Assembly (NCBI RefSeq): GCF_009766105.1
Contig: NZ_LMUH01000013.1
Location: forward strand, 679,602-743,601
Reading direction: 5' to 3'
Length of the DNA: 64,000 nt
From: Granulicella sp. S156
GTDB lineage: Bacteria > Acidobacteriota > Terriglobia > Terriglobales > Acidobacteriaceae
Every line of letters begins with the position of its first letter. Within the stretch, counting starts at the first letter, position 1. Shown here piece by piece: positions 5,908 to 15,153 of the stretch. Position numbers and translations under genes: made by a program. The notes beneath the pieces are model-generated. The model saw only the letters and a program-made list of their open reading frames with translations, did no database searches and was not told the DNA's origin.

Positions 5908-6909
5908 ATGGACCTAAGCACAGCCAAAACGGCAGCGAAGGGGCATCAACGGGTCGTCTTCCTCCAGGATGCGGCGATCGATGAGTATATCTGCACCATG
6001 CTTCTGACGCTCATGCCTGGCATCGAGCTGGCAGGGGTCATTATCGTGAATGCCGACTGTCTCGCAGAGCCTGCCATGCAGGCAGCATCCAAGTTACAAC
6101 AGTTTCTTCGGAGAAAAGACGTCCCAGTAGCTCTGAGTCGTGCTCGTGGATGGAATGCATTCCCATGGGATTATCGGAGCGACTGCATTAGCTTCGGCGA
6201 GATTCCCAGCCTCAAAGAATTTAAACCGGAGGTTACGACACCCCCGCTAGATGGAGAAGAGCTCCTTGTAAAGCTTCTTAAGGCGGCGATATCCGATAAA
6301 GATCCGCTGACGCTGCTCATCACCGGCCCTTTGACGCCGTTACAGATGGTGTTGGAAAGGAATCCCGAATTGGCATACGGCATCGTCTCGATCGTGTGGG
6401 TGGGCGGCGCGATCGATGTCGATGGCAATCTGGATCCGAAGACATTGCCATCTGCAGTGGCCAATACGCACGCGGAGTGGAATGCCTTCTGGGACCCGTA
6501 TGCCGTGGACTACGCTCTGAAACATTTCCATGACATACGGGTCTTTCCACTAGATATCAGCAATACAGCCCCGGTAAAAAAGGAATTCCTAAACTCTCTT
6601 CAGGAATTAGGAAAGAAAAGCCGTTATGCGCAACTGGCATTTGAAGCCTATAGCTTGGTTACCAAGGAAGAGTTCTATCGGCTCTGGGACGTGACCGCAA
6701 CGTGTTGGTTGACGCGCCCCGATCTGTATACCGCGCCGCGGTCCCTGCCTCTCGAAGTTGTGACCTGGGGGTTTGAGCAGGGTTGGATTCGATCGCTTGC
6801 TGCTACTGAGAGTGATGCTCGGCGGCAACAAGTCTACTTTAGCTTCAGCGATCTTCCAGGTTTCTACGAATATATTCTGCAACTCCTGTCTGCTCCTTCT
6901 GATCAATGA
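5908..6909 (+). CDS. Nucleoside hydrolase-like protein with a variant active site
   Basis: This 333-residue protein has the inosine-uridine preferring nucleoside hydrolase fold and no signal peptide, so it should be cytoplasmic. Family landmarks are the N-terminal strand and loop (VVFLQDAAIDEY, normally I-L-D-T-D-P-G-I-D-D-A), the PGIELAGVIIVNAD strand, LLITGPLTPL, VSIVWVGGAID and AEWNAFWDPYA (normally AEFN-x3-DPEA). The C-terminal WDVTA corresponds to the usual H-D-P-L-A. Relative to the consensus, the first Asp is Leu, the last calcium-binding Asp is Glu and the C-terminal His is Trp, while the central D-x3-D and the late Asp remain. Substrate preference may therefore be shifted or activity lost. 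The gene heads a same-strand cluster with two exported redox proteins and a nucleosidase-like protein. Confidence 0.75.
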   Translation: MDLSTAKTAAKGHQRVVFLQDAAIDEYICTMLLTLMPGIELAGVIIVNADCLAEPAMQAASKLQQFLRRKDVPVALSRARGWNAFPWDYRSDCISFGEIPSLKEFKPEVTTPPLDGEELLVKLLKAAISDKDPLTLLITGPLTPLQMVLERNPELAYGIVSIVWVGGAIDVDGNLDPKTLPSAVANTHAEWNAFWDPYAVDYALKHFHDIRVFPLDISNTAPVKKEFLNSLQELGKKSRYAQLAFEAYSLVTKEEFYRLWDVTATCWLTRPDLYTAPRSLPLEVVTWGFEQGWIRSLAATESDARRQQVYFSFSDLPGFYEYILQLLSAPSDQ

Positions 6910-6995
6910 TGCTGTTTCGCTGCCGGGAGAGGCTCTCTCGGCGATTTGCTTTGTGTGCAAGACAACCGAGAGCAAAGAGAAGAGGAACTATCCCT

Positions 6996-8483
6996 ATGCG
7001 ATTCAAAATCTTGTTTCCTGCGACCGTAGCCTTGTTGCTGTCGATCATGATCCCTTCTAGCGGCATACAGGCACAACAATCCACGCCGCAAGACGCGGCC
7101 TACTTTGCCTTCCGCAATGCAGTGACCGACCCACCACCTGTACACACGACTCCGATCTTCAAGCTCAGCAAGAACTTTCCCGCAACGGTTCCTGACAAGT
7201 GCCTCGAATGCGCCTGGCTAAAGATCGACGTCAACTTTACTCCGAGCTTTGACAAACCTTCCTCTCCGAACTGGCACGGCCAGAACTGGGATAAATACAT
7301 GGATGCCGTTCTTCAATATGTGAAGGAAGGGCAAGACCCGAATCTGAGCAACGAGGTCGGCTATCGGGTTGAAGTCAACCACAAAACACGTTGGTTCAAT
7401 GTGCCCTGGATGTCCTACGATCCGACGGCAGGGAGGGAGTTCGTGCATGGAACAACGAATGAGCGCACCGCTCACCTCGCTGATCTCGTGAATAACTCTC
7501 CACATGCGAGCAATTTGTATGTTGGAGAAACTGATGCCTGCAAGAAGGATTGGCCGTATGGCTTTGAATCCTGGTCCGTAGGCTATTACAACGAGTATGG
7601 AGGGTATGCGATAGGCCGTAGCATTCCCACAACCGGCGTGCCTAAGGTCAGCACATATCTGGGAACAACGGTGCCAGCAGGGCTTCCATTCAAAGAAGGT
7701 ACGGTAGTCGTCAAGATTCTGACGACCAATGCGCCCGAAGAGTGTGTCCCTAGCCTGAAGGGCTCCCCACAGTGGCAGATCGATCGCCATAAGGTCACCG
7801 CAGACAAGGGTTACGAATGTGATCGTGAAGTGCAGATCTCACGCATTGTGCAGGTCGACGTCGCGGTCGTAGACTTCAGGTCTCCGACGCATTGGGTATA
7901 TGGCACCTTTGGGTTCGATGGTGCCAGCGCTGGCAATACCTTCTGGGATCACCTCGTGCCCGTAGGGCTGCAGTGGGGTTCTGACCCATGGAGTTTTCCT
8001 GCAGTTCCGAAGACAGCGAGTCTATCTATACAGCAAAGCGTTATTGATAAAGATAATCCGCTCTTCCAACATTTGGGCTGCGCTGGTCGACTGGCCGGTC
8101 CGGTCGATAATCCTCAGTCTTCCTGTACTTCGTGCCACTCCAGCGCTTATGCCGTTCCCAACGGCGCGCCATCGGAGATGGGTGTGAACGTGCCTCCCAG
8201 CTTCGGCTTTCCAGGTCTGTGTGAAAACTACTCGCTCGACAATGCTTCCTACTTTCAGAATCAGACCATTCCACAGAGCTTTCCCGGAGGCCGATTCCCA
8301 ACAGCAATCAGTATGGATACCTCCCTGCAACTGGCGGTGGCCTTCACGCAGTATGGGTACTTCAATACGGAGCATGCGCCGCAGGCCTGTACGGATCCGA
8401 ACCAGGTTTCGCCCACTCCAAATCCAACTGTGCTGAGAACAAATTTCCTGCGGACCAGCGCCGTGCACAAAGGAGCAAAATGA
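6996..8483 (+). CDS. Exported protein with a CxxCH haem c motif
   Basis: This is a 495-residue protein. The start at 6996 is chosen because AAGAGGAA lies eight bases upstream and the protein then begins with a clean signal peptide (MRFKILFPATVALLL..., cleavage after GIQA). An earlier ATG overlapping the previous stop would add 30 basic residues before the signal. One CTSCH motif near residue 377 should bind a covalent haem c. A CLECAW pair near residue 68 lacks the His. The rest is rich in Trp, Tyr and Pro and matches no family I know. Its stop overlaps the start of the multicopper oxidase gene (ATGA), so the two are probably translated together and may act as a periplasmic electron-transfer pair. 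Confidence 0.65.
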   Translation: MRFKILFPATVALLLSIMIPSSGIQAQQSTPQDAAYFAFRNAVTDPPPVHTTPIFKLSKNFPATVPDKCLECAWLKIDVNFTPSFDKPSSPNWHGQNWDKYMDAVLQYVKEGQDPNLSNEVGYRVEVNHKTRWFNVPWMSYDPTAGREFVHGTTNERTAHLADLVNNSPHASNLYVGETDACKKDWPYGFESWSVGYYNEYGGYAIGRSIPTTGVPKVSTYLGTTVPAGLPFKEGTVVVKILTTNAPEECVPSLKGSPQWQIDRHKVTADKGYECDREVQISRIVQVDVAVVDFRSPTHWVYGTFGFDGASAGNTFWDHLVPVGLQWGSDPWSFPAVPKTASLSIQQSVIDKDNPLFQHLGCAGRLAGPVDNPQSSCTSCHSSAYAVPNGAPSEMGVNVPPSFGFPGLCENYSLDNASYFQNQTIPQSFPGGRFPTAISMDTSLQLAVAFTQYGYFNTEHAPQACTDPNQVSPTPNPTVLRTNFLRTSAVHKGAK

Positions 8484-10243
8484 GCGATTTGACGCGTCGG
8501 TCTTTTCTTGTTTTGGCCGCAGGAGCTACAGTCGGCTCTACGGCATCAGCTTCTGTTGCTCCTCAGGCGGTTCCTCAGTCGCAACCTGTATGTGTCCAGC
8601 CAACTGCAACTGAGCTGTCGCTTGTGGAACAAGCGGACTTCAAGCCGGACTTAGTTCTGGACTGCGGCTTCCTTCTGAAGACCATGGATGGAGTGAAGGT
8701 AAAACTGCGCGCGTACAACGGGCAGATACCAGGTCCACCCATCGACACTGTGGCGGGTCGTACCCTTCGGATTCGCATGAAGAACTCACTTCCTGCATCG
8801 GACTCCACCGGTTGGGGCGGAAACATGGATGTCCCGCACATGTTTGGCAATGTCAATCTTCACCTGCACGGTTTGGACGTCCCTCCGCACATCTTTGAAC
8901 CACTGGGCACAAGTAATCCGCTGGCGCCAATGATCTCTATCCCTCCAGGTGGAGAAAAGGATTACCCCTTTGTTATTCCTGACGACCAGCCCCCAGGGCT
9001 GAATTGGTATCATCCGCACTCTCATGGATCGACAGCGGTACAGGCTGTATCGGGTATGGCTGGAGCTCTGATCATCCGCGGGGCCATCGATGAAGTTCCC
9101 GAAATCAAAGCGGCCAAAGACTACATCATGGTGGTGTCGGATATCGGGCTCTTTGAAACGAATGAACCCCACGCAGATTACACCGACAGCTTTGAGCCAG
9201 CGCAGAATGCAATCTGGCAGACCTACTCCAAGGGTGCAGGTGAAGTCACGATCGATGGCCATCCTAAGAGACCACCCCTCCATTGTGGCTTTACCACGGG
9301 CGATTACCATCTGCGTTATTACTGTTTGAATGGGGAGCCTTTCTTCAAGGAAACCCATAATCCCGTACCGCCTGAAAATGGCGATCAGCCTGCGCCGATT
9401 GCTAGGCAGCTAACCCCCTATGTCTATAAGATGCGCCCCGGTGAGGTGGCGCGTTTCCGCCTCCTGAACGCATGCTCAGATCTCATGATGCCCGTCATGG
9501 TGGAAGGTCAGGACATGTGGCTGATCGCCATGGACGGCAATAACTTCGCCTCGCCACAATTGCGGAACGCCTCGCGCTTTGGAGCGCAGGTCCTGCTCGG
9601 GCCAGCGAATCGTGCAGAGTTCCTTATTAAGGCAAGTTCCAAGCCCGGTACATATCGAATCCTGCAACTGAAACAAAGCGAACAGTTCCTGGCCGCACCG
9701 GAGAAGACCATCGCCATCATTGAGGTAGAAGGAGAGCCTCTGGATATGGAAGTTCCGCGTCATCTCCCCAAGAACACACGTGACGCGCCTATTATGAGCG
9801 AGGATATCAAGCGGAAACGTTTCTTCGTCTTCTCCAGCGCATATCCGGGAATACAGAATCCGGTGGTCGGCCTCGATTTCGAGATCAATAATCAAATTTA
9901 CGACGAGCTTGCTGTGCCCACTGTCGTCGCTGTGGATGAGTGCGAAGAATGGCACATCATGGTTCCCAACTCCCAGGAGGGAGGTACAGAAGGACACCCC
10001 TTCCATATCCATGTGAACAGCTTCGAGGTGAAATCGATTGGTGGCGTGGAACAGATGCCTGGGTTGATCCAGGACACCATATGGATTCCACAGAATACAG
10101 AAGCTGTTATATGGATGCGCTTCAAAGAGTGGAGCGGAAAGTCAGTATTCCATTGCCATATTCTGCCGCACGAAGACACCGGCATGATGCAGAACTTCCT
10201 GATCCTGGATAAGCGACCAAACTATCACCATTCCATGGGGTAA
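8480..10243 (+). CDS. Tat-exported multicopper oxidase (laccase-like)
   Basis: This is a 587-residue oxidase that would couple one-electron oxidation of a substrate to reduction of O2 to water in the periplasm. The N-terminus carries a twin-arginine signal (TRRSFLVLAAGA). All four copper-ligand blocks are present: HLHG (128-131), HPHSHG (178-183), HPFHIH (about residue 505) and HCHILPHEDTGMM (about 557), which supplies the Cys, His and axial Met of the type 1 site. No Met-rich segment of the CueO type is visible, so copper detoxification is not specifically indicated. AGGAG lies four bases before the start, and the ATG overlaps the stop of the haem protein gene. The substrate is unknown; the haem protein encoded upstream is a plausible partner. 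Confidence 0.9.
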   Translation: MSDLTRRSFLVLAAGATVGSTASASVAPQAVPQSQPVCVQPTATELSLVEQADFKPDLVLDCGFLLKTMDGVKVKLRAYNGQIPGPPIDTVAGRTLRIRMKNSLPASDSTGWGGNMDVPHMFGNVNLHLHGLDVPPHIFEPLGTSNPLAPMISIPPGGEKDYPFVIPDDQPPGLNWYHPHSHGSTAVQAVSGMAGALIIRGAIDEVPEIKAAKDYIMVVSDIGLFETNEPHADYTDSFEPAQNAIWQTYSKGAGEVTIDGHPKRPPLHCGFTTGDYHLRYYCLNGEPFFKETHNPVPPENGDQPAPIARQLTPYVYKMRPGEVARFRLLNACSDLMMPVMVEGQDMWLIAMDGNNFASPQLRNASRFGAQVLLGPANRAEFLIKASSKPGTYRILQLKQSEQFLAAPEKTIAIIEVEGEPLDMEVPRHLPKNTRDAPIMSEDIKRKRFFVFSSAYPGIQNPVVGLDFEINNQIYDELAVPTVVAVDECEEWHIMVPNSQEGGTEGHPFHIHVNSFEVKSIGGVEQMPGLIQDTIWIPQNTEAVIWMRFKEWSGKSVFHCHILPHEDTGMMQNFLILDKRPNYHHSMG

Positions 10244-10347
10244 TTGCCTGGAAAGCAACAGCATAGTAAGCCTGACCTCGGCTGGGCGTCGTTATGCACA
10301 GCGTGTTTTTCTTGTCGCAATTCGATCCTTGAACAGGAGCTTAACCT

Positions 10348-11235
10348 ATGAAGCGTGTCGTTGTTGTTGTGAACAAGAAATGGGAGATCGCACCAATCCT
10401 GGCGGTTCTACGCGCCCCCTTTGCGCCTGGCTCTCACGCCTCGTCCAAACCACCAGCCTGGGAAACACCGCCCATCCTCCCAGAGCCATGGCCGGATCCC
10501 ACGGGAAACTATGATCTCGAGTTTCGCAACACGCTGCAGGTCGGTGGATGTCGCGTCGAACTCTGGTGTTTGGCGGACTTTGCCGATACATCTATTAGTG
10601 CTCAGAAGGTTGGGTATATCCCTCTTGTTCTGCAAGGCTCTGTGCCTGATCTTGTGATTGCGGTAGGTACAGCAGCAAGCGTAACTCCGTCCCAACAAGG
10701 GTCTGTGATCGTCGGAACACGTGCCTTTATCTTCGATTCAGGTCAGAATCAGGAACCGCTGCCCTCTAATTGGCCGGCTACACTCGTTGGTAAATTGATC
10801 GAATCATCTTTTCACTCTTCCTTTGAAAGACTTATTCGTGAATTGCCCGCAAAATGGTGGGCCGACGTGCAGTCCCGTATGCTTCTTCCTATCCACGGAG
10901 AAAGCGCGCCTGCAGTGCACCTGGATGCCGAGTTCACCGCAGTCGGAGACGTTAATGTTGATAATCCGGCCGAGTACAACAAGTTCGATCGTCTAGCCAT
11001 CGCTGCGTGCCGTGCTGCTGACCCAGGAGTAAATATAGGAAGCATTGAGACGACAAGTGCACTTATCCGGGCAATGACAGATCCCGTGCCCTACTTGTTC
11101 CTATCCGGGATAGTTAACGATCTCGGCGAATTTTCTCGAGACGTGCTACCAAATGAATATGCTCAGAATTTCGCGGGTAGTCATAATGCCGGTGTCGTTC
11201 TTGCTTGGTTGTTAGCGTACCTGACCGTCTGCTAG
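10348..11235 (+). CDS. Nucleoside phosphorylase/nucleosidase superfamily-like protein
   Basis: This 295-residue protein follows the layout of the purine phosphorylase/MTA-SAH nucleosidase fold. It opens with a hydrophobic strand then KKWEIAPILAVL, and PDLVIAVGTAAS corresponds to the family strand ending in a Gly-rich turn. GSVIVGTRAFIFDSG follows, GSIETTSAL stands where the family has its M-E-x-x-A, and SGIVNDLGE stands where the catalytic I-S-D lies. Glu and Asp at the key places are kept, although the surrounding motif is divergent. There is no signal peptide. An AGGAG lies nine bases upstream. With the nucleoside hydrolase-like gene at the head of the cluster, it gives two predicted nucleoside N-glycosidic-bond enzymes around two exported redox proteins. 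Substrate unknown. Confidence 0.55.
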   Translation: MKRVVVVVNKKWEIAPILAVLRAPFAPGSHASSKPPAWETPPILPEPWPDPTGNYDLEFRNTLQVGGCRVELWCLADFADTSISAQKVGYIPLVLQGSVPDLVIAVGTAASVTPSQQGSVIVGTRAFIFDSGQNQEPLPSNWPATLVGKLIESSFHSSFERLIRELPAKWWADVQSRMLLPIHGESAPAVHLDAEFTAVGDVNVDNPAEYNKFDRLAIAACRAADPGVNIGSIETTSALIRAMTDPVPYLFLSGIVNDLGEFSRDVLPNEYAQNFAGSHNAGVVLAWLLAYLTVC

Positions 11236-11762
11236 AAACGGGCACAACAAAACGGTGACAATCTCTTTACGATGGAATGACAATCTCTCTTTGAAGGTGA
11301 GCTAGTCTCATCATCTGATAGTCCTTCACGCACGGTGCTAGCGGACAGTTCTCGTCGTTTGCGAAGGCGATTCAAAGAAGAGGTGACGTCGCATTGCCGC
11401 TGCCCTTCGCTCCCTGTTTATTTTGGAAAACATCGTGGCATTGGTGTCGCAGTGCCACCCAGTGCTGCCGAACCTTGAATTTCAAGGCCGCCACGCCTAC
11501 CTGCGGCGATAGAGGCTCTCGACCGCGATCTTTCACGCCCTCTGGCGGCATTTAGGAGATCACGTTCTGTACCAATTCCGCCGCACCAGGGCACCATGAG
11601 CAACAAGCGTCGCACTTTTGACAAGGCGATGATCATATCGAGACCTTCTGGTGACACATGCACGAAAGCGACGGGATACTCTTCGCAGAGAACTGACGAA
11701 CCGGCTCTCTTGCCAGAAATCACGAACGGCAGCAAAGCCTTTCGAGAAACTATCCCAAATTG
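11236..11762. other. Long intergenic region with uncertain small ORFs
   Basis: No convincing gene. A 55-codon plus-strand ORF (11596-11763) ends in a TGATG overlap with the GTP cyclohydrolase II start but has no clear RBS and an unremarkable, basic product. A 105-codon minus-strand ORF (11418-11735) also looks weak. The start of the region carries a direct repeat. The length suggests a regulatory leader or a decayed gene. Confidence 0.4.
11256..11288 (+). repeat. Direct repeat with 22-base period
   Basis: TGACAATCTCT occurs at 11256-11266 and again at 11278-11288, exactly 22 bases apart. The spacing is close to two turns of the DNA helix, as for a tandem operator. It lies just after the nucleosidase-like gene and far (about 475 bases) from the next start. 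Confidence 0.4.
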
Positions 11763-12455
11763 ATGAAATTAAAACAAATCGCTGATGTACATTTTCCAAC
11801 GCAATGGGCGAACTTCCGCCTGTTGGCCTTTGAAGGCATACAGGCCGATTATGAAACGACTGGAAAGCCTAAAGAGACTGCACTGGCGTTAGTTTTGGGC
11901 GATATCTACAGCTCTCCTCCAGTAGTTCGCATTCATTCTCAGTGCACGACTGGGGATGTTTTCCACTCTCTACGGTGTGACTGTCATGACCAACTTCACC
12001 TGGCCTTGCGCATGATCGCGGATGAAGGTACAGGAATTCTGCTCTATGAGCATCAGGAAGGCCGAGGTATTGGCCTCATGGAGAAGCTGCGCGCCTATGA
12101 ACTTCAAGAGCAAGGATTCGACACAATCGAAGCCAACCTTCTTTTGGGACACCTAGTCGATTTGCGCGATTACGCACTTGCTACAGAGATTCTTCGGCTT
12201 CTAAAGATTCGTTCGCTTCGATTGATGACCAATAACCCTGAGAAGATCGATGCTGTGCTCACGGCGGGAATTGAAATTGTCGAGCGCCTGAGCGCTAATG
12301 TTCCAGGCAGCCCTCACTCCGACCGGTACCTTGCCACTAAGCGCGAGAAGCTTGGTCATTTCCTCAATCCTGCAGCCATCTCATCCGATACCAGTCATCG
12401 CGGGCAATCAACTCATAGCGCAGCTGTTATTAAAAATGCTCGCGACAGCGTTTAG
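11763..12455 (+). CDS. ribA: GTP cyclohydrolase II, stand-alone
   Basis: This enzyme opens the imidazole ring of GTP and releases formate and pyrophosphate, giving the diaminopyrimidine precursor of riboflavin and of some azapteridine metabolites. The 230-residue protein shows the family blocks: SQCTTGDVFHSLRCDCHDQL with the three zinc Cys (C-x10-C-x-C), YEHQEGRGIGLMEKLRAY, DTIEANLLLG and LMTNNPEKI. ATG 11763 is preferred to the TTG just before it. There is no fused RibB domain and no other riboflavin gene nearby, and a radical SAM enzyme and a methyltransferase follow. That context hints at a dedicated GTP-derived product rather than bulk riboflavin synthesis. The last 25 residues are a Ser/His-rich tail beyond the normal end. 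Confidence 0.9.
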   Translation: MKLKQIADVHFPTQWANFRLLAFEGIQADYETTGKPKETALALVLGDIYSSPPVVRIHSQCTTGDVFHSLRCDCHDQLHLALRMIADEGTGILLYEHQEGRGIGLMEKLRAYELQEQGFDTIEANLLLGHLVDLRDYALATEILRLLKIRSLRLMTNNPEKIDAVLTAGIEIVERLSANVPGSPHSDRYLATKREKLGHFLNPAAISSDTSHRGQSTHSAAVIKNARDSV

Positions 12456-12658
12456 GTCGGGATGTAATACGCAAAATTATCCGGATTCCGTACGGGAAAG
12501 GGATGACATTGAGCTGACAATTTTGAGACAACTGCCTGCACTGGATGGGACTACGCTACATCTCGTAAAGGGAATCTGCCAGCTGCGCTAATGTGCCTGG
12601 CACATACGCTGGAGGCCATCGGCTGAACCTGTCAGCGAGCAAATACCCGAGGTGAACT

Positions 12659-14152
12659 TTGGCACATGTCCTACTGACGCATTCGTATCATCTTCCATAT
12701 GACGCGAAGCAGCTGCGCAAGATGCAGCCGTACACTCCGATTGGCACGCTTTATGCGGCAACTGCACTGCGGGAGAATAATATCTCTGTCGCAGTATTCG
12801 ACTCGATGCTTGAGGATCCATCGGCAACATTCTCTGCGATATTAGAAAGCCACCAGCCGAAGATTGTGGCTGTCTATGAGGACGACTTCAACTTTCTTTC
12901 GAAGATGTGTCTCACACGCATGAGAGAGGTGGCGTGGGAGATCGCGAAAGCCGCGCATGCTATCGGCGCTATCGTCATCGTTCATGGTTCCGATTCGACC
13001 GATAACCCTACCTTGTTTCTGGAGAAGGGCTTCGACTATGTGCTTTGCGGAGAGGCAGAGAAGACTCTTGTACAGCTCTGTACTTCTATATTGCATGCCG
13101 AAGCAATCCCGGAGATAGAGGGTATGGTGAGGTTCGACGAAACGGGCCACCTTGTCCAGAGTGCACAGCGGTTATCGAAAAATCCAGCATGGTCGGAGCT
13201 TTCTCTGCCTTCGCGCGATTTAATCGATCTGGAGCCGTATCGCGCGGCATGGATGAAAACACATGGCTATTTTTCAACGAATATGGTGTCTAGTCGTGGA
13301 TGCCCTTACCGCTGCAACTGGTGTGCGAAACCAATCTCCGGCAATAAATTTCATTTGCGACCCGCCGGAACTGTTGCCGAAGAGATGAAACGGCTGAAGT
13401 TCGATGTAGGAGTCCAGCATATCTGGTTCAGTGACGATGTCTTTGCATTGAACCAGCACTGGATGAAACAGTTTGCTGAGGAAGTCACGAAAAGAGATGC
13501 GGCTGTTCCTTTCAAAATACAGTCTCGTGCCGACTTGATGAGTGAGCAGACCGTCCAATCCCTGAAGGCCGCGGGTTGTGCTGAAGTATGGATGGGTGTT
13601 GAATCCGGATCGCAAGCCGTGCTCAACGCGATGGACAAGGGTCTAAGTCTTTCTTCCGTTATTGTTGCCCGTCGTCGCCTGAAAGAAGCTGGCATTCGTG
13701 CCTGCTTCTTTTTGCAGTTTGGCTACCCAGGTGAAACCTGGGTAGAGCTACAGGAGACGATTGCCTTTGTCCGGCAGATGCGCCCCAACGACATCGGAAT
13801 TTCATTCTCGTATCCGCTGCCGGGTACCGTGTTCTATGAACGCGTAAAGACACAGCTCGGGCAAAAGCGCAACTGGACCGACAGTGATGATCTTTGCATC
13901 ATGTTCAGAGCAGCCTATAACACCGATTTCTATCGTGCCGTGCGCGACGCTCTGCATGCTGAGGTCGATTTCTGGCAAGACTCAAAGGCACAGAGCAGAA
14001 CAAAGGCGCAGATCGACGCACTGTGGCGCAAGGTGAACGAACTGGAGCCGATGAGCCGCGATGAAGAAGCCTTGCCTCTCGATAGTCTTTCCACTTTTAC
14101 CTCGTCTGAGATCGTGTCTGTTGAGCAATTGGTGCAGCTCAGAGGGGTATAG
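12659..14152 (+). CDS. B12-binding-type radical SAM protein
   Basis: This is a 497-residue protein of the BchE/P-methylase-like radical SAM group. Residues 1-150 form a cobalamin-binding-like Rossmann domain (YTPIGTLYAATALRE, VLCGEAEKTL) without the DxHxxG base-off motif. The radical SAM core begins with SRGCPYRCNWC, giving the CxxxCxxC [4Fe-4S] ligands near residues 215-222. It continues with FSDDVFALN, KIQSRADLM, WMGVESGSQAVLNAMDKG and FGYPGET. Translation starts at TTG 12659 with GAGG eight bases upstream. The family performs methylations and ring rearrangements on unreactive carbons. It leads a same-strand set with a methyltransferase and a glycosyltransferase, about 200 bases after GTP cyclohydrolase II. 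The substrate cannot be told from sequence. Confidence 0.85.
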   Translation: MAHVLLTHSYHLPYDAKQLRKMQPYTPIGTLYAATALRENNISVAVFDSMLEDPSATFSAILESHQPKIVAVYEDDFNFLSKMCLTRMREVAWEIAKAAHAIGAIVIVHGSDSTDNPTLFLEKGFDYVLCGEAEKTLVQLCTSILHAEAIPEIEGMVRFDETGHLVQSAQRLSKNPAWSELSLPSRDLIDLEPYRAAWMKTHGYFSTNMVSSRGCPYRCNWCAKPISGNKFHLRPAGTVAEEMKRLKFDVGVQHIWFSDDVFALNQHWMKQFAEEVTKRDAAVPFKIQSRADLMSEQTVQSLKAAGCAEVWMGVESGSQAVLNAMDKGLSLSSVIVARRRLKEAGIRACFFLQFGYPGETWVELQETIAFVRQMRPNDIGISFSYPLPGTVFYERVKTQLGQKRNWTDSDDLCIMFRAAYNTDFYRAVRDALHAEVDFWQDSKAQSRTKAQIDALWRKVNELEPMSRDEEALPLDSLSTFTSSEIVSVEQLVQLRGV

Positions 14153-14196
14153 ATGCCGAACTATCACATCTTGCTATATACGAAGAGGGGGTAGCG

Positions 14197-15153
14197 ATGA
14201 GTGCATTGCAAAATGACATTGCTGACGATACTACTATCCACTTAAGCGTCCGTATGCAGTGCCCGTCCTGCAGGGCCGACTTGAGTGGCATGAACTGTAT
14301 GTCGTGCGGTTTCCGACTTCAGATCAGCCGCGGAATCGTGCACGCTCTACCTGCAGAGCGTGTTGCGTATTACGCGCGCTTCATGGAGGACTATGAGCGC
14401 ATAAGGGCTGCAGAGGGCCGAGGAAGCGGAAGTGAAGAGTTTTATCTGGGCCTCCCTTATGAGGACATTACCGGTAGAAATAGTAAGCAATGGGATATCA
14501 GGGCGCGCAGTTATGACTATTTGATGCGGCACGTGCTGCAACGAATTCCTCAGGAAAATGGGGGAAGAATTCTGGATCTTGGAGCAGGGAACTGTTGGAT
14601 GAGCTTTCGTCTGGCGCTCGCAGGGTACCATCCGTTTGCAGTAGATCTGCTCTCTAATGATCGCGATGGGCTTGGGGCCGCTGCGCATTATCAGAGACGC
14701 TTGCCTGAGCCCTTCTTGAGATTCCAGGCTGAGGCTGCACGTCTGCCGTTTCAGGACGAGCAGTTTGATGCTGTAGTATTCAACGCCTCTTTTCATTACT
14801 CCGAAGATTACGAAGTTACTCTGCGTGAGGCATTCCGGTGCGTCAAAAGCGGAGGCTTAGTGATTATCAGCGACACGCCATGGTACTCCCGCGAGGAAAG
14901 TGGCAGACAAATGGTTTCCGAGCGCCGTGCCGCCTTTGCTCACCATTATGGAACCGCTTCGGACTCCATTAAGAGTCTTGAGTATCTTACAAACAGTCGG
15001 CTGCGCCTCCTTGAAGAGCAACTGTCAATCCAGTGGGCGATACATTCTCCTAGATATGGTATCCAGTGGGCGATGCGTCCTCTTGTGGCGAAGTTACGCC
15101 GGAAGAGAGAACCTTCCCGGTTCCGCATTTATGTAGCCCGGAAGAATGTATGA
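14197..15153 (+). CDS. SAM-dependent methyltransferase with N-terminal zinc ribbon
   Basis: This is a 318-residue class I methyltransferase. Residues 22-45 carry a C-x2-C-x8-C-x2-C ribbon (CPSCRADL...CMSCG). The SAM-binding domain starts near residue 120 with RILDLGAGNCWMSF, and continues with the PFAVDLLSND acidic loop, AARLPFQDEQFDAVVFNASFHY and the post-motif SGGLVIISDTPWY. The basic C-terminal region (KLRRKREPSRFR) could contact a membrane or nucleic acid. GGGGG lies six bases before the ATG, and the stop overlaps the next ORF by ATGA. Zinc ribbons occur in rRNA methyltransferases of the RlmA type, but the radical SAM and GT87-like neighbours make a small-molecule or lipid substrate more likely here. 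Confidence 0.8.
   Translation: MSALQNDIADDTTIHLSVRMQCPSCRADLSGMNCMSCGFRLQISRGIVHALPAERVAYYARFMEDYERIRAAEGRGSGSEEFYLGLPYEDITGRNSKQWDIRARSYDYLMRHVLQRIPQENGGRILDLGAGNCWMSFRLALAGYHPFAVDLLSNDRDGLGAAAHYQRRLPEPFLRFQAEAARLPFQDEQFDAVVFNASFHYSEDYEVTLREAFRCVKSGGLVIISDTPWYSREESGRQMVSERRAAFAHHYGTASDSIKSLEYLTNSRLRLLEEQLSIQWAIHSPRYGIQWAMRPLVAKLRRKREPSRFRIYVARKNV

Follow-up and report, generated by a model that had tools for sequence, protein, structure and literature searches.

The window analysed here, a stretch of 64,000 nucleotides from Granulicella sp. S156 (contig NZ_LMUH01000013.1; genome G000 in our set, whose relatives are Acidobacteriota), carries four genes on one strand that encode a variant nucleoside hydrolase (NH), an exported CxxCH protein (CYT), a multicopper oxidase (MCO) and a further protein referred to as gene 4. 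Its composition suggests an oxygen-using route, so far undescribed, that acts on nucleoside-like compounds. We consider it very likely that CYT and MCO act as a functional pair, and likely, judging from profile alignments, that CYT is a large and divergent relative of cytochrome P460/c'-beta. Our preferred reading is that the cluster belongs to a two-compartment oxidative module handling a purine-like nucleoside or base in one shared pathway, to which we assign a probability of roughly 0.4.

Recurrence of the cluster and rarity of its genes

NH, CYT and MCO follow one another in the same order in the window, in T. albidus (L002/L027), in genome G297 (L021) and in a metagenome-assembled genome (L003), at about 60–66% identity. 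The latter three come from one genus (3 of its 19 genomes, with G336 taken as T. albidus and G454 as L003) and have several flanking genes in common, all of them unlike the flanks in the window. An earlier reading of this DNA made from its letters (hereafter the sequence-only reading) had proposed an undescribed functional set, which freely varying neighbours would have spoken against. The NH-CYT-MCO order is instead kept amid different flanks, and the MCO subfamily, present in 4 of 396 Acidobacteriota genomes (E ≤ 1e-80, MCO-only query), stands at a CYT in all four. Most genome searches scored the best few candidates per genome, and the genome counts given here are to be read as lower bounds.

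Related arrangements bring in a fused molybdenum hydroxylase (Mo-hydroxylase). The order CYT, Mo-hydroxylase, MCO occurs in G315 and G463 (2 of the 7 genomes of their family), where MCO is about 55% identical to that of the window and XdhC lies upstream in G463; CYT followed by Mo-hydroxylase occurs on a plasmid of Methylobacterium indicum. In G310 and G467 a gene for an NH with the DAAIDE motif is divergent from a second NH gene (NH2) followed by that for the Mo-hydroxylase. These two loci have no CYT, and the MCO match in G310 covers 36 residues of a different kind of protein. A CYT scan of the genome contigs gave three loci. Within the nine closest CYTs, including that of the window (at least 43% identity), MCO is adjacent or one gene off in seven (window, L002, L003, L021, L004, L022 and L048); of the other two, L005 has no annotated MCO in the stretch read and the stretch of L023 ends at the contig end just after CYT.

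All of these genes are rare. CYT is found in 8 of 396 Acidobacteriota genomes (E ≤ 1e-10) and, among 61 close relatives, in the window's own genome alone; the NH subfamily is found in 5 of 396 (E ≤ 1e-20, including one weak match, G348, whose neighbourhood was left out), and the fused Mo-hydroxylase subfamily in 2 of 295 (E ≤ 1e-200), once with CYT-MCO and once with NH. Chance would not be expected to produce three kinds of link (NH with CYT-MCO, CYT-MCO with Mo-hydroxylase, and NH with Mo-hydroxylase) between such rare genes; this argument from rarity carries no computed probability, and the members of the one genus are not independent. Taken as a triangle, these links support a single shared theme.

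The neighbourhoods were annotated with a greedy caller of open reading frames (ORFs) of our own, and several neighbouring genes were named by eye (the cyclase in L024, SARP-like genes in L008/L009). Upstream of the CYT-MCO genes of the metagenome-assembled genome L004 lie an Rrf2-family regulator gene and a bacterial globin gene (8723–9631). On a Rhizobium plasmid (L007:595–10511) the neighbours of a distant relative of CYT are TIR-domain genes and the genes for a GMC oxidoreductase and a Ferritin-like PF12902 protein, and two other distant relatives (L011:5491–9886 and L024:2570–9370) adjoin adenylate/guanylate-cyclase genes, annotated in L011 and named by eye in L024.

The CYT protein and its relationship to cytochrome P460

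CYT has a leader-like N-terminus, as judged by eye, and a CxxCH motif at residues 377–381, in line with the exported CxxCH protein of the sequence-only reading. One distant homologue carries the annotation 'cytochrome P460 family protein'. PF16694 is matched by 10 of 17 CYT homologues at E ≤ 1 (best 4.7e-5), and it is the sole family with matches in more than two of the 17. When the 17 CYTs were compared by hhalign with ten plain P460s, nine of them plasmid-borne and one encoded in the window genome, the alignment had an E of 2e-5, a probability of 77% and a score of 42.2; the reversed alignment scores 18.2, and 100 column shuffles reach at most 29.2 (0 of 100 reach 42.2). With the eight distant CYTs alone the E is 1.8e-5. 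An earlier comparison of two P460 sequences with ten CYTs was not significant (probability 1.5, E 0.035), and significance came only with ten P460s and 17 CYTs.

The alignment places CYT K240 on Lys78 of Methylococcus capsulatus P460 (McP460) and D288 on Asp102, which Table 2 of PMC11928373 gives as the haem cross-link and the distal carboxylate, respectively, and the 24-residue spacing from lysine to carboxylate in 6hiu agrees with this numbering. Q286, D293 and W300 are, together with K240 and the CxxCH motif, invariant in the 17 homologues, and D288 is kept in 16. The local alignment ends ahead of CxxCH, which lies further downstream in both families. The P460 features looked for, a haem c motif, the cross-link lysine (as a residue) and the distal carboxylate, are all present. 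On this sequence evidence CYT would not just carry electrons but would be a P460-superfamily relative with residues of catalytic type. A PDB profile search with CYT alignment A1 gave nothing relevant, the PDB search with a Variovorax CYT homologue gave nothing, and viral contigs searched for CYT and gene 4 held neither.

The window genome also holds two other P460-family domains (C26:50148–50516, L054; C23:249795–250184, L055), and a third weak P460 match adjoins L054. L054 retains both the K and the E residue and is preceded by a further CxxCH.

The multicopper oxidase

MCO matches all three Cu-oxidase Pfam domains above the cut-off. Its four copper-ligand motifs (HxH at 128, 178, 509 and 558) are intact together with the type-1 site HCHILPHEDTGM, and with these motifs and the type-1 Cys/His it belongs to the multicopper oxidases. 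The twin-arginine leader MSDLTRRSFLV was recognised by eye, so the oxidase with a twin-arginine (Tat) signal described by the sequence-only reading stands. The best PDB relatives are laccases (9cpm, E 8e-35; 2xu9 from Thermus thermophilus, E 1.2e-33), and the NCBIfam models for CueO and aminophenol oxidase match weakly, with no equivalog cut-off reached. A related MCO (29.5% identity) on a Salipiger plasmid (L057:4833–9354) stands in a row with a small c-type cytochrome, a phytochelatin synthase-like gene, a dehydrogenase small subunit and a GMC oxidoreductase.

The variant nucleoside hydrolase and the linked Mo-hydroxylase

NH clears the curated score of PF01156 (114.5 bits vs. a cut-off of 34.2), and its nearest PDB relatives are 2c40 and purine-specific IAG nucleoside hydrolases; its identity to three orthologues is 60–61%. 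The nucleoside hydrolase consensus DXDXXXDD, as given in PMC10526354, is replaced by [LV]-x-DAAIDE in 6 of 6 variant NH sequences, with Leu/Val in place of the first Asp of this calcium/ribose motif, and the variant hydrolase claimed from the sequence is therefore real. NH2 of G310 carries the canonical form. E190/N192 and W260-D261 are kept in NH. A Trp at the W260 position is a feature of group II (purine) nucleoside hydrolases where PMC10526354 describes them; of the group II Trp pair W260 is present, and the Trp83 region reads WDYR vs. TEWR in the T. brucei enzyme.

The linked Mo-hydroxylase of the relatives has the 2Fe-2S, FAD and Mo domains of xanthine dehydrogenase/aldehyde oxidase all on one chain. 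The position of bovine Glu802 is Thr (G315, Methylobacterium) or Gln (G310), and the Arg880 position in the three checked sequences is apparently replaced as well. The bovine numbering and the reference letters around Arg880 are assumed, and the aligned reference is presumably a Glu802 mutant. Since both positions appear to differ, xanthine is not a likely substrate, and we doubt xanthine dehydrogenase as the substrate-defining enzyme, with the reference letters partly assumed. In the plasmid collection the Mo-hydroxylase query returned one close record (66.5%), which carries CYT, and the other 20 of 21 records were at 29–32%.

Gene calls, gene 4 and neighbouring genes

The four same-strand ORFs lie where the sequence-only reading placed them (Table 1). 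The start of CYT is the exception: 6906 was proposed, and 6996 is probably correct, as start 6906 would put 30 residues ahead of the leader, the ribosome-binding-site-like AGAGGAAC precedes 6996, and the longest CYT ORF in three orthologous loci still falls short of the NH stop. ATGA coupling, which had been noted at the NH/CYT junction too, would therefore be confined to the CYT/MCO junction; a gap of 104 bp separates MCO from gene 4.

Table 1. Features of the cluster, with positions in the window.
Feature	Position	Strand	Remarks
NH, variant nucleoside hydrolase	5908..6909	+	333 residues; PF01156 E 9.9e-33; no leader seen
CYT, exported CxxCH protein	6996..8483	+	495 residues; probable large divergent member of the cytochrome P460/c'-beta superfamily
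CYT K240 codon	7713..7715	+	aligns with P460 haem-cross-link lysine; 17/17 homologues
CYT D288 codon	7857..7859	+	aligns with P460 distal carboxylate (NeP460 Glu96 / McP460 Asp102); 16/17 homologues
CYT CxxCH haem-c motif (CTSCH, residues 377–381)	8124..8138	+	17/17 homologues
MCO, Tat-type three-domain multicopper oxidase	8480..10243	+	587 residues; all four ligand motifs present; start overlaps the stop of CYT (ATGA)
Gene 4, 295-residue protein outside recognised families	10348..11235	+	accessory; phosphorylase-like by eye only

A 10-pair stem-loop at 6921–6943 in the gap between NH and CYT was discarded, its sequence being absent from the three orthologous gaps. The terminator scan gave 8 sites vs. 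6.3 expected and the promoter scan 2 vs. 5.8 expected, none of the latter upstream of NH. PADLOC found nothing in the four window genes and the phosphorylase-like gene of L003. Gene 4 is followed, after a gap of 524 bp, by consecutive genes for a RibA-type GTP cyclohydrolase II (TTG start), a B12-binding radical SAM protein and a methyltransferase (11760–15153). None of these three has a BLAST match (E ≤ 1e-5) in nine relative loci of 9.6–18 kb each.

Gene 4 had been described as nucleoside-phosphorylase-like and as a member of the set, and neither description finds support. It has no match at E ≤ 10 in Pfam or NCBIfam (including PF01048), its sole PDB match is a potassium channel (E 0.99), and it resembles phosphorylases in short motifs only, by eye. 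The L003 gene in the same slot is a member of PF01048 (1.1e-6, 28.7 bits vs. a cut-off of 25.1) with an ATG (8352) that overlaps the MCO stop. BLASTP finds no similarity between it and gene 4, and 30 of 100 shuffles score as high as their comparison. An AlphaFold model of gene 4 from a single sequence had a confidence (pLDDT) of 36.4, too poor for use. Gene 4 is found in 1 of 396 Acidobacteriota genomes (E ≤ 1e-5) and is not conserved, being in our reading a lineage-specific add-on. A broken gene-4-like remnant adjoins an S8/S53 peptidase gene on a Bradyrhizobium quebecense plasmid (L010:6001–7434), and upstream of it lie CHAT, patatin and phospholipase D-like genes.

Proposed module and alternative explanations

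The module is built on what the analysis shows: the conserved cluster, the CYT-MCO pairing, the links between NH and Mo-hydroxylase, the intact copper ligands of MCO, and the relationship of CYT to P460 with the residues that align. From these we infer the electron flow, the order of compartments and the class of substrate. In the cytoplasm, NH would hydrolyse the N-glycosidic bond of a purine-like nucleoside, and in relatives the fused Mo-hydroxylase would take or share this step and oxidise the heterocycle. Outside the inner membrane, CYT would act as a P460-superfamily haem enzyme with haem c on C377, C380 and H381, possibly with a cross-link from K240 to the haem and with D288 as proton acceptor. 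This periplasmic CYT would oxidise a small nitrogen-containing substrate and pass electrons to MCO, which would reduce O2 to water as the O2-dependent electron sink of CYT. The outcome may be the breakdown or detoxification of a single class of nucleosides or bases that are purine-like and probably modified. The division proposed by the sequence-only reading, with nucleosides handled in the cytoplasm and electrons in the periplasm, seems reasonable since it fits the predicted leaders. Its suggestion of a purine-derived compound is favoured indirectly by a purine-type NH with Trp260 and by a linked Mo-hydroxylase of the xanthine dehydrogenase/aldehyde oxidase type, but the active-site residues of the Mo-hydroxylase are not of the xanthine type. 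We have little confidence in a more specific scheme, in which CYT is a true P460 enzyme in organisms other than ammonia or methane oxidisers, driven by the dedicated O2-using MCO in an unrecognised aerobic pathway whose purine nucleosides are N-hydroxylated or N-oxidised, with NH freeing the base, Mo-hydroxylase (where present) oxidising it and CYT-MCO oxidising a hydroxylamine-type nitrogen, possibly with release of nitric oxide (NO) or nitrous oxide.

It is also important to consider the observations that weigh against a single module. CYT and MCO have leaders and NH and Mo-hydroxylase do not, so a transport step is needed. The links are also incomplete: NH is absent from the stretches read in G315 and G463, and from that of L004, where the contig stops within MCO; no MCO is annotated in the Methylobacterium stretch; and the window genome has no fused Mo-hydroxylase, its partial matches reaching at best 28% identity. 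Given 67% identity between the Mo-hydroxylases of G315 and Methylobacterium, the CYT/Mo-hydroxylase pair may have crossed phyla as a unit and not have formed twice. Against the sequence-only reading, the genes that accompany distant CYTs are of other kinds (a GMC oxidoreductase together with a ferritin-like protein, an amidohydrolase, an adenylate cyclase and others). As to the P460 assignment, the window CYT alone matches nothing in Pfam or NCBIfam at E ≤ 10, the best CYT family member scores 24.2 bits vs. the curated P460 score of 27, hhalign with the nine closest CYTs alone gives an E of 1.1e-3 (probability 21%), and an AlphaFold model of CYT from a 4-row alignment had a pLDDT of 30.5 and was not used.

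That distant CYTs stand beside other oxidoreductases suggests a reusable role of CYT as an oxidation module. This also fits the main alternative, which we hold to be somewhat unlikely: CYT-MCO (P460-like, or a simple haem c donor with MCO) as an oxidase pair that stands on its own in the periplasm and serves the chemistry of NO, hydroxylamine or metals and phenols, to which NH and Mo-hydroxylase are attached through shared regulation such as starvation or nitrogen scavenging. The occurrence of CYT-MCO in L004 with no NH in the stretch read is in keeping with it. The Rrf2 regulator and globin genes ahead of CYT-MCO there, a pairing associated with the response to NO, agree with it as well as with the proposed module. 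Also in keeping with the alternative are the different enzyme beside CYT-MCO in G315/G463, the several unrelated enzymes beside distant CYTs and the small c-type cytochrome gene adjoining the related MCO in Salipiger. Shared stress regulation alone would not, however, predict that NH (5/396) and Mo-hydroxylase (2/295), rare as they are, are linked both mutually and to CYT-MCO. We regard it as unlikely that MCO is instead a phenol or metal oxidase of the laccase/CueO type with CYT as an accessory electron acceptor, leaving NH and gene 4 to independent nucleoside salvage. Its nearest PDB relatives and weak NCBIfam matches would agree with this, but the equivalog cut-offs are not reached, no metal-handling family appears among ten window neighbour proteins scanned, MCO is closely partnered with CYT, and NH, as a variant, departs from ordinary salvage enzymes.

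The patchy spread of the genes (CYT, among 61 close relatives, in the window's own genome alone, and in 8 of 396 genomes across the phylum; gene 4 in 1 of 396) would be compatible with a chance or hitch-hiking assembly. This we consider improbable, and it is already disfavoured by the order conserved at about 62% identity amid different flanking genes and by the links of the rare Mo-hydroxylase in two Acidobacteriota families and on the Methylobacterium plasmid. A biosynthetic role, in which the base split from a nucleoside would be oxidised into a redox mediator or signal for secretion, might be read from the RibA, B12 radical SAM and methyltransferase genes that neighbour the cluster, but these are unmatched in the nine relative loci; we think such a role very improbable, and the secreted redox compound of the sequence-only reading finds no support.

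Comparison with known systems

Apart from gene 4, every family represented here is known or has known relatives; their combination, and the couple of a large P460-type protein with MCO, are not described in the literature searched (titles and abstract starts). The same search gave no description of a cluster of nucleoside hydrolase, multicopper oxidase and cytochrome c, none of a set of multicopper oxidase, xanthine dehydrogenase and nucleoside hydrolase, and no pairing of cytochrome P460 with a multicopper oxidase.

NH resembles the IAG nucleoside hydrolases and 2c40 in its family profile (PF01156) and in EWN, W260-D261 and Asp21/Asp25, residues whose roles we partly take to be those of the known enzymes, and differs from them in carrying [LV]-x-DAAIDE in place of DXDXXXDD in the six variant sequences. 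The linked Mo-hydroxylase has the full single-chain architecture of the fused xanthine dehydrogenases/aldehyde oxidases, whereas the positions taken as bovine Glu802 and Arg880 carry other residues in the three sequences compared. MCO is like the three-domain multicopper oxidases (Thermus laccase 2xu9, CueO) in its four ligand motifs, type-1 Met and Tat-type leader, and unlike them in forming a separate subfamily tied to CYT that does not reach an NCBIfam equivalog.

CYT shares with cytochrome P460/c'-beta (PF16694; M. capsulatus P460, 6hiu) the GTxxxK lysine, the Q-x-[DE] distal carboxylate, the Trp on the next strand and the downstream CxxCH, in identical order. It is much larger (about 410–520 residues vs. 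about 160), with an N-terminal half that has no recognised counterpart and insertions of about 20–25 and 50 residues, and it stays below the Pfam cut-off and is partnered with MCO. The characterised cytochromes P460 that we found in the review PMC11928373 come from ammonia and methane oxidisers. If our reading is correct, a large P460-type protein that carries both catalytic residues and has its own MCO in Acidobacteriota would extend P460 chemistry, give it a natural electron sink in MCO, and tie it to the metabolism of nucleosides or nitrogen heterocycles.

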